A stretch of 64,000 bases of DNA from Micractinium sp. NFX-FRZ (taxonomy: Eukaryota; Chlorophyta; Trebouxiophyceae; Chlorellales; Chlorellaceae), in NCBI GenBank assembly GCA_029339195.1, contig JAPTJF010000037.1:1-64000 (forward strand), given 5' to 3'. Positions 49,928 through 58,053 of this stretch are shown here, piece after piece. The first letter of the stretch is position 1, and the number at the start of each line of letters is the position of its first letter. A model generated the notes under the pieces. It had not been told where the DNA came from and did not search any database. It saw only the letters and a list, made by a program, of their open reading frames with translations. The position numbers and the translations under genes are program-made.

Positions 49928-52900
49928 CTAGGCGGCCCGCCGGCGGGCCACCTGCGCGCTGTACAGGTCGCTGGGCAGGATGGGGCTGCTCCGGCTGAAG
50001 GCGGCGCGCTCCACGTGCCACCCAAAGTCCCGGCAGTCGCTGCTGGCGGCCTGCACCTCCACAGCAATATCGCCTGCCGCCTGCCCGCCCGGAGGCGTGC
50101 CCGCCGCAGCTGCCGCGGTGACCCTGCCGCCGCCGCTGGCACTGCTGCTGGTGAGGGTGACTGTGGCTGTGATGCCGCTGCCCGTGGTGAGCCCTGTGAG
50201 CTCATCATATGCCTGCCGTGGGTTCTCAGGCAGCGTCTCCTCTGGAATGATAATAGGGCCATTCTCAACGGCCACTGCAAAGATGGGCTCCTCATCTTCA
50301 GCGCCTGCTGACGTGGCGCTGCCGTCGACCGCGCCGGCCGCTGAGAGCAGGCGGCGGCCTGCGCAGACGAGCGGGGGCAGGCGGGCAGAAGGGGTGGCAG
50401 GTGTGGGTGGGTGGCTGTGTACCAGGCGAGCATCCGGCCAGGCAGCAGGCACGCAACCCTGCCCATGCCACTGCGTGCGGAGTGCATGGGAGGGCCTAGT
50501 GCTGCACTGTGTGGCGCTTCACCGGCACATCATGAGGCTCCCAAGACCCAGAGTGCTGCCACCTCCTGCCCACCCGCCTACCCGCCCACAGCCCCCATTG
50601 CCCGCCCACCCACCGCGTGTGGTGGCCTGAACCTTGCCCCAGTTGCCGAAGAAGCTGAGCAGGGGGCCGTAGCTGCAGGGGGGAAGGTCCACTGGTACCG
50701 CCAGGGCCTCTCTGTATGATGTCGGGACCTTCACCTTGGAAGCATACACATTCCACCAAGTGTTGTTGGCGCCTGCAGGGAGGGGGGGCAAGGACAGAGG
50801 GCGGGGGCAGAGGGAGGGGTGAGGGAGGGAAAGAGAAGAGAAGAGGGCAGGGGCGGAGGGACGAGCGGGGGAGGGAAGCAGGGAAGCAGCGGGCAGGGGC
50901 GGAGGGCAGGCATGGCGCAACAGCGGCGAGCGCACGTGTGGCAGAGAGTCAATGTGGGCTCCCCAGGTGTCGCTACAGCCGCATGCCACCGCCCTGGACG
51001 TGAAGCAACACAGTGTGAGCTTAACAGTGCAGCATCCCATCCGGCTGTATGCCTGCCCTGACTCCCAGGGCCCCCACCTTGCCCCCTCACCGCTGTGCGC
51101 GCCGCGGTCGGCACGCCCACCGCTGCGCCAGGCGCGATTGCCAACGCCGAGATCAAGGTTGCTGAACAGGTTGGAGTGAGTGCCTGCAGATTGCGGCAAC
51201 CCCAATGGCGGGATAGAGGGAGGGTCGGGGAAGGGGGGTCCGTGCATACAGGCGGCCGGGCACACAGGTGACAGACGGGTGCGCCGCTGCTGGGCCTCTT
51301 ATGCCCTGCTAATGCACAGCCCGGCACCGGTGGCTACAGCTGGCATCCCCCCACCCCCACACGGTTTGCTTGCCCATTGACGGCCCTGCTCGTGCCCACC
51401 CACTCCTGCCCCACCCAGCCCCGCCACCCCCAATCTTTGACCAACCCTTGCTCCTGCTCACCTGCCCGGTGGCAGTCAAAGTTCAAGTTGGTGCCGCCTC
51501 CATTGGCATATACTGTGAGCTCCGCAAATTGGTCGACCGACACGTCGTGCACCCAGGGCTGCTGGAACCAGAAGCTGCACGGAAGCCGGGGGCGGGTACG
51601 CGAGAGGCAGGGCGGCCAGACAGAGGGACGACGGTTGGTGGGTTTGGTGGGTGGGGAGGGAGGCGTGCGGTGGGTAGAACAGTGAGGCGCCAGGTGGCGG
51701 CGCATGGGGCCGGGGGTGTCCGTAGGCCTCCCTGCCCTCCACATGCCATACACACCCCACGCTCTTTGGTACTTACTTGGTGAACAGCACGTCGGCGGAG
51801 CGGCTGGTCCACAGCGCGTGGTGGCCGTTCACAGGCACCTGGATGTTCTTGGTGGCGCCGGTGGCGCTGCAGCAAAGGAAGCAAGGGGGAAAAGGGAGGG
51901 AGGTGGGGAGGCAGGTTGGTTTGGTGCGCGGCAGGTACAGGCGGCAGCAGCAGCAGTACAAGCCATATAAAACGAGTGCGCAGGTCACGGCCCTCACCGC
52001 TTCTCAACTTCGGGCCACGCATAGTCGAAAGCAGAGCAGCAGCGCAAATCAATTTAACTCAAACCAGCCAGCGTATGCTCACCGCTCCCGCGTGTTGTCG
52101 AAGCGCGTGCGGTCGACAGTAATGAAGTCCACGCTGCTGAGGATGATGCCATTGTCGGCATTCAGTACCTTGACCTGCGTGGGCGGGTGGGGTGTGACAC
52201 CAAGTTGGGGGGAGTGCATGGCCCACGGCGGTGGGGTGCAGGGCAGGGTGTGCCACCAAGAGGGGTTGACTGGACGGCCCCCAAACAGCGAGGTGGTGCA
52301 ACCTAGGGAGGCGAGGAGGCATTCCACCTCTCACGCACACTGCATTGAAGAAGACGAAGCAATGAAGACGACGAAGCAAAGAGACCAACAGGACAATCAA
52401 GAGAGAAGACGGCACCGCAAACAGGGCACATTATGGACTCACGTCTCTGACCCAGCAGTTCGCGACGTCGTAGAGGGCGATGGCGTTGGCGCCGCCAGGG
52501 TGGAAGTGTTCGGGGAAGGCGGCTGCACAAGCAGATTGGGCGGTCAGCTGGTTGAGTAACTGAGTGAGTGACGGGCGGGGTTGCAGGCTCCCCTTGCCCG
52601 CCTGTGACTTGTGCCGCATGCCCTGCCTGTGGCCTAGCAGGTTGCGATGCAGCGGCGAGGCAGACAGCCAGCACTGCCTGCATGTGCCGCCCCTTAGCTG
52701 CCACTGCACCGCCTGGAACCGCTCCTCCCCCTCCCCTACCGCCCACTTCCCCATCTACCCTCCCCCTGTTACCCCACTCACTCCAGCCAAACTCCATGGT
52801 GAAGCCCTCCAGCCCGCTGTGCTGCACGCTGGGCGCAAACTTGTGGAGCACCGGCTGCACCAGCCGGGATGGGCAACAGTTGGCAGGAACAGTGGGAACG

Positions 52901-55900: not shown

Positions 55901-58053
55901 TCGCCCTTCTTGCCCCACAGGCGGGACGTGGCGCTGCCGCCGGAGGCAGTTTCGACTCCGCTGCCCCTGGGCGGGGGCGGCGAGGGCATGGGTGCTGGGG
56001 AGCGCGCGGGCGCCGGCGAAGGCGGCGGGGAGGGCCGCGGAGAGGGAGGGGGTGATGGCGCGGGCGACGGCTTGGGAGGGGGGTTGGGCTGGGGCGAAGG
56101 GGCGGGGGCTGCTGTCTCGGAGCACCTGCACATGTATGTATGTAGCGAGTTGCAGGGCCCGGGGTGAGGTTGTGACGCCAGCTGTCCCTGGCAGGCCCCA
56201 AAACCGGCACCCAGCAGGGCCAGGCACATTGATGCACAGCACGGGACAGGACAGGACAGCACAGCAGCAGCAGCAGGCGATGCGCCGCCATGCTGTCCGC
56301 CACTCCCCTCCCTTCCTGCTGCCCTCCCTGCTGCCGTCCTGCAGAGCAGCATGCACGCATGCCGCCCGCCACAACCGTGGCACAAGCCTGCCTGCCGCTG
56401 ACCAGCTGCCGACTATCAGCCCTCTGTTGTTTTAGTCTTGAGGATAGTGTTGTGGTGTCCAGGGTTACCAGGACGAATAACGGCTCACCTATAATTGAAC
56501 TCCAAAGCCTTGTTGATACCCGTGGGGCATGGGTCCCCAAACACATCAACGGAGGCCCGCAGCACGCAAAAAGGCTCGCCCACGCACGCAGCCCTCACGA
56601 TCCTGCACAGGGCGGGGCAGGGCAGCGGCGGGCGGGCAGCAGGCAGGCCGGCGGGTGTGACAATCCTGCTTCTAAAGGCCCTGCTTGGCGCCTCCCTGCA
56701 GCCTCCCTCCCATGCAGGCGGCAACATCCCAGCGCAGCACAGCACAGCACAGCACATGGACCCCAGGCATTCAAAATGGAGGCCGCCGATGGAGGCGCAA
56801 CTCACTTGTAGCTGCCAGTTGCGTTGCACCCCGCCTGCAGGTTCCCATAAATGGGCAGCGAAATGTCGGTGATGCGTGCGTCGTCCTGCCCGCAGCGGGC
56901 AGCGCCCACAGCCTCGTCGCCAATCCGCACGAAATAGGTCTCGCCTGCGGACAGGTGGCGACACAGCAGGCGCCTCGTGTGGAGCAAGTGGAGAGCAGCA
57001 GGACGGGGGCGCGGGGGAGCAGGCAGGGCAGCGGTGAGGCGTGCGGGCGAGTGGGGAGCTTAACAGGCACTGGCAGGTTAGACACCATGGCTGTTACGCA
57101 GTGCTCAACACTCTCAGCTGGCTGCCCCACCTTGGGGTGCAACGGCGGGCTCAGGCGCAGGGGAAGGCTTAGGCGGGGGCTTGGGTGCAGGGGAACGTTT
57201 GGGAGACGGCTTAGGAGAAGGCATAGGAGCAGGGAGAGGCTTGGGGGAAGGCTTGGGGGAGGGTTTGGGGGAGGGCTTGGGGGCAGGCTTGGGGGAGGGC
57301 TTGGGGGCAGGCTTGGGAGAGGGCTTGGGGGCAGGCCTGGGTTTAGGCTTGCCCACAGTCCACCGGCTCTTGGCCCAGCACCTGCCACTGATGCACCTCC
57401 TGCCGCAATACTTTTCGCTGGTGCCGCACGTGCCCTGCAAGGCGGGAGGCGGGAAGGGCCGGGCAGCCAGTGTGATCCCCCTGCCGCACCAGGCTTGTGG
57501 CCCTGCCGAGTGGGCCGTGGAGCACCGCTGTGCGGCGTGTGGTGCAGTGCAGGTGGCGAAATGCAGCGATGACAGAGCGTGCTACTGTGCCAAATGCCCC
57601 GCCGTGAGCAGCATGGAGCACAGGGACCGACATGCGGCAGCCTGTTGGCAGAGCGGGGCAGGCCGGCAGGCGGGGCGCACCCATCGCGCGCAGCAGGCTC
57701 TGGGGTTCTTGCACAGCTCGCCCTTGCTGCGTGGGCCGCATGCCCAGTTGGACTTGCTGCGGCGCTTGGTGGCGCCTGCGGGAACGGCGGCAGTTGAGAG
57801 CGGGGGTTGGGGCGGGGTTGCGGAGCGTTAAAAGTGTGGCAAACAGGAGCCGCTGGCTGGAATGACTGCGCTTAAATGATGCGAATGATGTGTGTATTGT
57901 GCCGCTGCTATGCAAGGGCAGTGTGAGCTGGCGGGGGCAGCACACAGTCGAGCAGGGTGCCCAAGGCGCGCCAAGCGACGCACCGTCGGCAGCCCCGGCC
58001 AGCAGCGCCACCGCCAGCGCCAACAAAAGCGCCAGCCGCTGCGGTGCCGCCAT
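49928..58053 (-). CDS. Chitin-binding/SUEL-lectin/beta-helix (pectate-lyase-3-like) secreted protein
   Basis: Twenty-one exons, fully in phase, encode 1,073 residues: 57984-58053, 57681-57775, 57131-57434, 56806-56944, 56489-56602, 55848-56125, 55605-55682, 55192-55343, 54910-54998, 54566-54656, 53814-54381, 53451-53490, 53004-53076, 52782-52854, 52443-52522, 52083-52174, 51777-51866, 51462-51574, 51091-51183, 50614-50772, 49928-50358. Residues 1-23 are a signal peptide. Residues 36-74 hold eight cysteines (36, 45, 51, 52, 58, 65, 69, 74) in hevein (CBM18) order, CCARWGTCGTSEKYCG included. A KPSPKPAP-type linker (about 80-150) follows, then a SUEL-type lectin domain (about 170-242: ISLPIYGNLQAGCN, CVGEPFCVLRAS, VFGDPCPTG). 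A second Ser/Pro linker runs to about 310. The beta-helix begins INVLTFGAKGDGKTDCSTAF, with VEVPPGRYML and NIVLRGSG as in pectate-lyase-3 proteins, and ends near NNTWWNVYAS. Binding and degradation or modification of wall polysaccharide is inferred; catalytic residues were not assigned. The intron after 55605 has a GC donor. It is a tandem paralogue of the gene at 58973. Confidence 0.88.
53250..53430 (-). repeat. Imperfect ~34-base tandem repeat in an intron
   Basis: Units containing TGTGCAGTGCAAGTGCCCTG recur about five times with variation inside the intron 53077-53450 of the beta-helix gene. Confidence 0.75.
57150..57350 (-). repeat. Coding KPSPKPAP repeat (proline-rich linker)
   Basis: On the plus strand this is GCTTGGG(G/A)GAGG or GCTTGGGGGCAG repeated every 12 bases. 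On the gene strand it encodes alternating Lys-Pro-Ser-Pro and Lys-Pro-Ala-Pro, a hydroxyproline-rich-glycoprotein-like linker between the chitin-binding and lectin domains. Alternating Ser-Pro/Ala-Pro is the usual target for prolyl hydroxylation and arabinogalactan addition in green plants (known for the motif; not shown here). Confidence 0.9.

Follow-up and report, generated by a model that had tools for sequence, protein, structure and literature searches.

Gene A of the green alga Micractinium sp. NFX-FRZ (Chlorellaceae), on the minus strand at 49928..58053 of the 64,000 nucleotide stretch of contig JAPTJF010000037.1 that is referred to here as the window, is predicted to encode a secreted protein that joins two lectin modules to an enzyme-type beta-helix. 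As judged by sequence comparison, the helix belongs to an algal family that is the sister group of polysaccharide lyase family 29 (PL29), the Bacteroides hyaluronan/chondroitin lyase family. The protein may be a secreted wall-associated lyase, or a close mechanistic relative of one, for a glucuronic-acid-containing matrix polysaccharide, used in wall loosening or daughter-cell release, a role for which the balance currently stands about even.

The gene runs from an ATG at 58053 to a stop at 49928, and its 21 exons, picked by hand from open frames and from splice borders that follow the consensus, give an open frame of 1073 amino acids. Nineteen of the 20 introns are GT-AG and the other is GC-AG, with its GC donor found after exon 7, beside 55605; this intron is supported because splicing there restores the motif GAKGDGKTD, which is common to these helices. 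The order along the protein is signal peptide, hevein-type CBM18, proline linker, SUEL lectin, second proline linker, right-handed beta-helix and C-terminal tail, and the joined frame bears out the coordinates, the strand and the single secreted protein with this domain order that had been put forward in a preliminary description of the window. Exon 1 (57984..58053) encodes what by eye is a signal peptide, MAAPQRLALLLALAVALLAGAADG, with its last glycine codon split with exon 2, and the C-terminal tail (residues 926-1073) is encoded at 49931..50629.

The same architecture is found in two relatives whose annotation is absent or misnamed. The orthologue P0001 (Micractinium tetrahymenae ABPG75_013753) has all three domains in the same order and is 68% identical to gene A over the helix region (residues 340-960), and P0016, a model from M. 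conductrix named 'band 7 isoform A', has the order CBM18, proline linker, SUEL, proline linker and helix inside a longer model that appears to join extra sequence before the orthologue. Fusion can occur among the predicted genes of this group, as appears to be the case in P0016, and it could be argued that gene A is itself an artefact in which two adjacent genes, one for the lectins and one for the beta-helix, have been wrongly joined. However, exon 6 (55848..56125) alone encodes the last SUEL cysteine, linker 2 in full and the LWG cap with which the beta-helix starts, and in running from the end of the SUEL domain through the linker into the helix this one exon shows that both domains are parts of one gene. 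The order is also the same in P0001, which is from another species, and in the family proteins P0004 and P0006, which leaves wrong joining extremely improbable and nearly refuted. Exon 3 alone encodes the second half of the CBM18 together with linker 1, and the intron between linker 1 and the SUEL domain (57130-56945) is the sole junction of gene A that rests on the gene models of relatives (P0001 and P0016). A single gene, predicted to encode CBM18, SUEL and helix, is therefore supported.

The helix occupies residues 309-925, with an N-terminal part (residues 309-494; 54310..55923) delimited by Pfam and a structure model, an alanine-rich insert (residues 495-655; 53827..54309) and a C-terminal part (residues 656-925; 50630..53826) that is delimited by alignment and hidden Markov models (HMMs) and holds the invariant residues. 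It had been described as pectate-lyase-3-type, and PF12708 does match residues 346-420 (E 1.1e-11, 45.4 bits, above the cut-off of 27), but this match spans only the start of the helix and the whole domain is related to the PL29 glycosaminoglycan lyases. The families that Pfam matches in gene A do not include PL14, and the modelled fold is a beta-helix.

For P0001, P0003 and P0005 the NCBIfam model that matches best is that of the BT3328-family hyaluronic acid endo-lyase (E 3.6e-16, 1.1e-14 and 6.2e-22), and the same model comes first for all seven bacterial relatives in the scan (E between 8e-18 and 1.1e-24). The cut-off of 1100 bits for NF058554, the BT3328 equivalog model of PL29, lies well above these proteins, with P0001 at 58.6 bits and the 12 algal and bacterial proteins scanned, a set without gene A itself, at 86.7 bits or less. 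In a search of 295 genomes, sampled from the order to which a genome titled Bacteroidales belongs, eight had a match at E 1e-30 and one was above the curated PL29 cut-off (L060, 1246.7 bits). The eight rows termed PL29 here come from six genomes, with L060 alone passing the curated cut-off and L070 weak (149 bits), and these eight Bacteroidales genes stand for PL29 in the comparisons that follow, the sequence of BT3328 itself lying outside the set. An HMM of the C-terminal half of the algal helix matched all eight (E 1.4e-11 to 1.6e-4), whereas all of 31 other loci that share the PF12708 stretch stayed at E 1 or above, and reversed decoys came no lower than 0.84. The reverse HMM matched gene A at 2.4e-10, compared with lowest values of 0.11 among the 31 other PF12708 loci and of 0.25 among reversed decoys.

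An alignment of 34 rows was made up of eight Bacteroidales, three Verrucomicrobia, 14 algal or algal-type (out of 21 such matches) and eight other bacterial sequences (out of more than 50), together with gene A, the long Bacteroidales proteins being trimmed to their last 590 residues. G711, E713, H727, H794, H818, H844, L852, G869 and W884 are invariant in all 34. Glu713 is encoded at 52807..52809, His727 at 52506..52508, His794, within a GHH motif, at 51821..51823, His818, within an HD motif, at 51547..51549 and His844, within a DxHR motif, at 51469..51471, with the Asp842 of this last motif replaced by Glu in seven of the eight PL29 rows. In the model of P0005, which has a mean predicted local distance difference test score (pLDDT) of 81, the invariant E388 is within a strand, H402 is in a loop and H465, H489 and D513/H515 are at strands of three successive coils, and from this spacing we infer that the Glu and His residues share one groove. 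It is conceivable that the protein is instead catalytically dead or weak and acts in recognition, with the helix as a rigid scaffold and the modules used in symbiosis, in cell-surface adhesion or to recognise pathogens; some adhesins are beta-helices, among them the structural neighbour PfbA (4mr0), and the lectin modules of the family range from none to a CBM18 with four SUEL domains (P0019, by eye), a variation that would be expected if these were recognition proteins. Yet a Glu and four His that are invariant in bacteria and algae alike are hard to explain without an active site, and a purely recognitory role appears quite unlikely.

A tree was built from 30 of the 34 rows, omitting four fragments or duplicates, and it comes with warnings of long branches (L070, P0071) and of unusual composition in five PL29 rows. 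One branch (100/98) sets the 13 algal rows apart from the rest and another (100/97) does the same for PL29, so the algal rows group outside the PL29 clade, with Polyangia-type proteins (two rows are named Polyangia or Polyangiaceae) and Verrucomicrobia-type proteins between the two groups. It is because of the reciprocal HMM matches, the invariant residues and these branches that the algal family is placed as sister to PL29. The two share the matches of the C-terminal half and the invariant Glu, four His, Trp and Gly, whereas the algal proteins make up a clade of their own, are a long way short of the equivalog cut-off, differ in their second shell and carry the alanine-rich insert and CBM18/SUEL modules, in place of which PL29 has an N-terminal spacer. 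As the positions around the core differ, the algal family is not filed as PL29. The helix was probably gained once by the Chlorellaceae and fused to lectin modules.

With its nearest non-algal relatives being bacterial (Polyangia-type and Verrucomicrobia-type), the protein might be used for scavenging or defence, acting on foreign exopolysaccharides such as those of bacterial capsules, fungal walls or other algae and not on its own wall. Among the nearest solved folds are several that belong to depolymerases of capsules or exopolysaccharides, and it is general knowledge that plant CBM18 domains are often antifungal; on equally general grounds a SUEL domain and proline-rich linkers suit retention on the cell's own matrix, and foreign targets are considered rather unlikely. 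At the level of modelled folds a viral protein, A0A1X9VNR6 of Mimivirus AB-566-O17 in BFVD, also matches the same beta-helix (E 2e-34, with the next of the viral matches listed far behind), and its label of 'putative dihydrofolate reductase' looks wrong.

Both lectin modules recognised in the preliminary description are found again, despite near misses in Pfam. The SUEL domain (residues 158-242, exons 4-6; 56122..56942) is matched by SUEL_Lectin (PF02140) over residues 195-242 (E 1.1e-6, 29.3 bits, below the cut-off of 31.4). Against PDB sequences (phmmer) the gene A protein matches the rhamnose lectin SUL-I at E 4.6e-16, with residues 194-243 as the best stretch, and the SUEL region searched alone matches SUL-I at E 1.1e-22 and CSL3 at 1.9e-9. 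Superposition on SUL-I (5h4s) of the SUEL domain modelled for the orthologue P0001 gives 1.7 A across 96 columns, and from the PDB sequence matches and this model the assignment is strongly supported. The SUEL fold is common to the rhamnose-binding lectins (SUL-I 5h4s, CSL3 2zx0) and the Lec domains of latrophilin, whereas gene A has a single SUEL domain fused to an enzyme-type helix. The primary sugar site of CSL3 consists of Glu7, Tyr27, Asn74, Asp79, Gly83 and Lys86 (PMC3269628; this and the papers cited below are drawn on through excerpts). In the alignment the counterparts of Asp79, Gly83 and Lys86 are kept in gene A, and those of Glu7 and Tyr27 are assigned by motif order only.

The hevein-type CBM18 (residues 34-75, exons 2 and 3; 57375..57746) has the complete eight-cysteine hevein pattern. 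Chitin_bind_1 (PF00187) matches residues 36-74 at E 7.3e-6 and 26.6 bits, below the cut-off of 27.8; P0001 gave 26.8 bits in our own Pfam run, though the precomputed table lists PF00187 for it. Wheat germ agglutinin matches residues 34-75 at E 4e-8 (phmmer against PDB sequences), where the top row, 8zvk, matches residues 80-173, which is the proline linker. The domain has a low pLDDT in the structure model, and its assignment as a CBM18 is supported at the level of sequence, by the pattern and the agglutinin match. Two proline linkers had also been proposed, and both are there: linker 1 (residues 76-155; 57135..57374), made of K/S/A-P repeats with a tandem repeat of period 12, has 35 prolines in 80 residues and linker 2 (residues 243-305; 55933..56121) has 27 in 63.

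Walls of the Chlorella type are notoriously resistant, and little is known of how such an alga gets its wall open. The matrix polysaccharides of Chlorella contain rhamnose and glucuronic acid. As a wall lyase the protein of gene A would be secreted by means of its signal peptide and held on the wall matrix of the cell itself by the SUEL domain, of the rhamnose/galactose type, and by the divergent CBM18, both carried on stiff proline-rich linkers that are probably hydroxyproline-glycosylated. The invariant Glu and four His would form the active-site groove, the helix would cleave a glucuronic-acid-containing matrix polysaccharide by beta-elimination, and this cleavage would serve wall loosening or daughter-cell release; the catalysis, beta-elimination, substrate, wall location and timing are what we infer. 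Uronic chains are a plausible wall target because among the enzymes encoded by chloroviruses are vAL-1, which is a lyase that acts on chains of glucuronic acid, and A561L, with an alginate-lyase-like domain that degrades the host wall (PMC8145301, PMC5408694), and because the wall of C. vulgaris is partly broken down by a mixture of enzymes that includes an alginate lyase (PMC6440988). Like the role proposed for gene A, vAL-1 and A561L (PL14-type) are uronic-chain lyases tied to Chlorella walls, although they are of another PL family and are virus-encoded.

A number of observations weigh against this role as a wall lyase. The four contact residues of the CBM18 are A-W-T-Y in gene A, P0001 and P0016, as opposed to the classical S-W-W-Y, and the positions replaced by Ala and Thr are what we take to be Ser19 and Trp23 of hevein. 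Gene A thus shares with hevein and wheat germ agglutinin the spacing of the eight cysteines and, within the site, a Trp and a Tyr, but not the other two contacts, and as these are replaced in both orthologues too, chitin targeting is doubtful, chitin binding by this domain is uncertain and its ligand may be something other than chitin. Targeting of two glycans had been suggested earlier, and whilst two glycan-binding modules are indeed joined to an enzyme-type helix, the chitin half of that suggestion has become doubtful. In the SUEL domain, the counterpart of Asn74 of CSL3 is Val. For P0010 and P0012, which are two divergent algal-type proteins of the family, the match to the BT3328 model is weak (7e-6 and 5e-6) and a rhamnogalacturonidase model does better (9e-8 and 1.3e-8). 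Positions in the second shell differ between PL29 and the algal proteins, the PL29 rows having mostly Lys/Ser in place of N734, Ser/Gly/Ala in place of H795, Ala/Gly/Ser in place of D819 and Cys in place of N840, and therefore the substrate probably differs too, or the chemistry may. Lyases, epimerases, hydrolases and phage tailspikes all occur among the nearest structural neighbours of the helix, so the fold leaves the chemistry undecided, and no published catalytic residues of PL29 were found in the literature searched, outside which the founding PL29 paper lies. PBCV-1 has also been reported to enter its host without the use of the five wall enzymes known for it earlier, vAL-1 included.

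A different connection to viruses can be made through the substrates of PL29. BT3328, a surface lyase of Bacteroides thetaiotaomicron, cuts chondroitin sulfate and hyaluronan (PMC9067506, PMC6994673), some chloroviruses carry genes for synthases of hyaluronan and/or chitin, and hyaluronan comes to coat PBCV-1-infected cells (PMC5408694). The algal enzymes could thus act against a capsule, removing the surface hyaluronan induced by chloroviruses, with chitin bound by paralogues that have an intact CBM18, or could trim an undescribed glycosaminoglycan-like polymer of the alga's own. An aromatic chitin-type site is kept in P0004 (S, Y, F, F), P0006 (S, W, Y, F) and P0019, but the algal clade lies outside PL29 with its different second shell, and in the excerpts of PMC5408694 the plaques of PBCV-1 were unchanged by added hyaluronidase or hyaluronan, hence such an anti-capsule enzyme is distinctly improbable. 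A wider suggestion is that the Chlorellaceae own a lectin-guided eukaryotic sister family of PL29 which targets either an undescribed wall polymer of glucuronic acid and glucosamine type or the hyaluronan/chitin coat induced by chloroviruses, which is speculative and seems unlikely.

No paper on this architecture or on green-algal PL29-like proteins was among the matches listed in a search of open-licence full text, supplements and databases, CAZy among them, being outside it, and to that extent the architecture looks undescribed, as had been thought; it is not isolated however, and belongs to an expanded Chlorella/Micractinium family. Of the 15 family proteins of a first search, six have a SUEL domain in the precomputed list (P0001, P0002, P0003, P0004, P0006 and P0009), and looking for the same architecture elsewhere, as had been proposed, found all three domains in P0001, P0004 and P0006. 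In a second search P0018 and P0020 have a SUEL domain and, by pattern, a CBM18-like stretch, P0019 has a CBM18-like domain and then four SUEL-type domains, counted by eye, before the helix, and P0022 and P0023 are helix proteins with PAN/Apple domains. It is apparent that the lectin modules vary over the family, with none, one or four SUEL domains and with the CBM18 present or absent.

Five helix genes, A to E, are found in tandem on the same contig (C37) from 49.9 to about 94 kb and share the minus strand. Both halves of the CBM18 are found in A, C and D and the second half only in E, a motif scan found neither half in B, and SUEL matches are found in A to D. The 3' part of paralogue B (SUEL and beta-helix, from a tblastn map and motif scan) lies at 58997..64000 on the minus strand and continues beyond the window to about 67.1 kb. 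Other matches to the helix region are on at least nine further contigs (C21, C85, C86, C87, C103, C108, C129, C180 and C750), including a gene like P0019 at 82.6-92.8 kb of C85 (G000), and there is a SUEL-region match on C471 and further SUEL matches on C612, C272 and C55. Grouped by hand and without gene models, the matches give at least 15 gene places for the family in this genome. In M. tetrahymenae the neighbouring tags ABPG75_013749, 013750 and 013753 suggest that family genes are clustered there too. Separately, three CBM18 matches (E down to 9.5e-11) occur inside 1.6 kb at G000:C444:49794-51372, probably in a multi-hevein protein.

A further feature of the algal proteins is the motif RR(x0-3)LL, which 19 of the 21 that are algal or algal-type carry and none of 49 bacterial relatives does, with 24 matches compared with a mean of 1.4 and a maximum of 4 in 200 shuffles; the count leaves out the fragment P0024, and the match at P0016:880 is in a signal peptide and is not comparable. 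Gene A has it as RRLL at residue 499 (~54.3 kb), where the alanine-rich insert starts, and at residue 932 (~50.6 kb), at the end of the helix and within the C-terminal tail. Judging from its sequence, it is possibly a dibasic site of proteolytic maturation.

Elsewhere in the window, the convergent neighbour of gene A is an exon at 48604-48732 on the plus strand that matches PF14159 (E 1.3e-16) and encodes part of a thylakoid membrane protein of the CAAD/CURT1 type. Cysteine-rich repeats at 44.3-45.1 kb have a weak Ephrin_rec_like match, below the cut-off. Two near-alike gene pieces (GSYVDGIWSQ.PAQTYARY..., by eye) lie on the plus strand at 28.0-29.1 kb and 37.6-38.9 kb, with no Pfam match. Motifs like those of SNF2/ATRX helicases (MGLGK, VVVVDEAH) are seen by eye in several frames at ~16-20 kb, also on the plus strand, and two open reading frames near them (11.6-13.1 and 17.2-18.1 kb) have no Pfam match.

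A lectin-carrying family related to PL29 gives named candidates for the opening of the algal wall. If its placement is true, there would be a eukaryotic branch beside a bacterial family of glycosaminoglycan lyases, in a group of algae with viruses of which some make hyaluronan or chitin. Should the target prove to be a hyaluronan/chitin coat or a polymer of glucuronic acid and glucosamine, the family would report a virus-host arms race over extracellular sugars.

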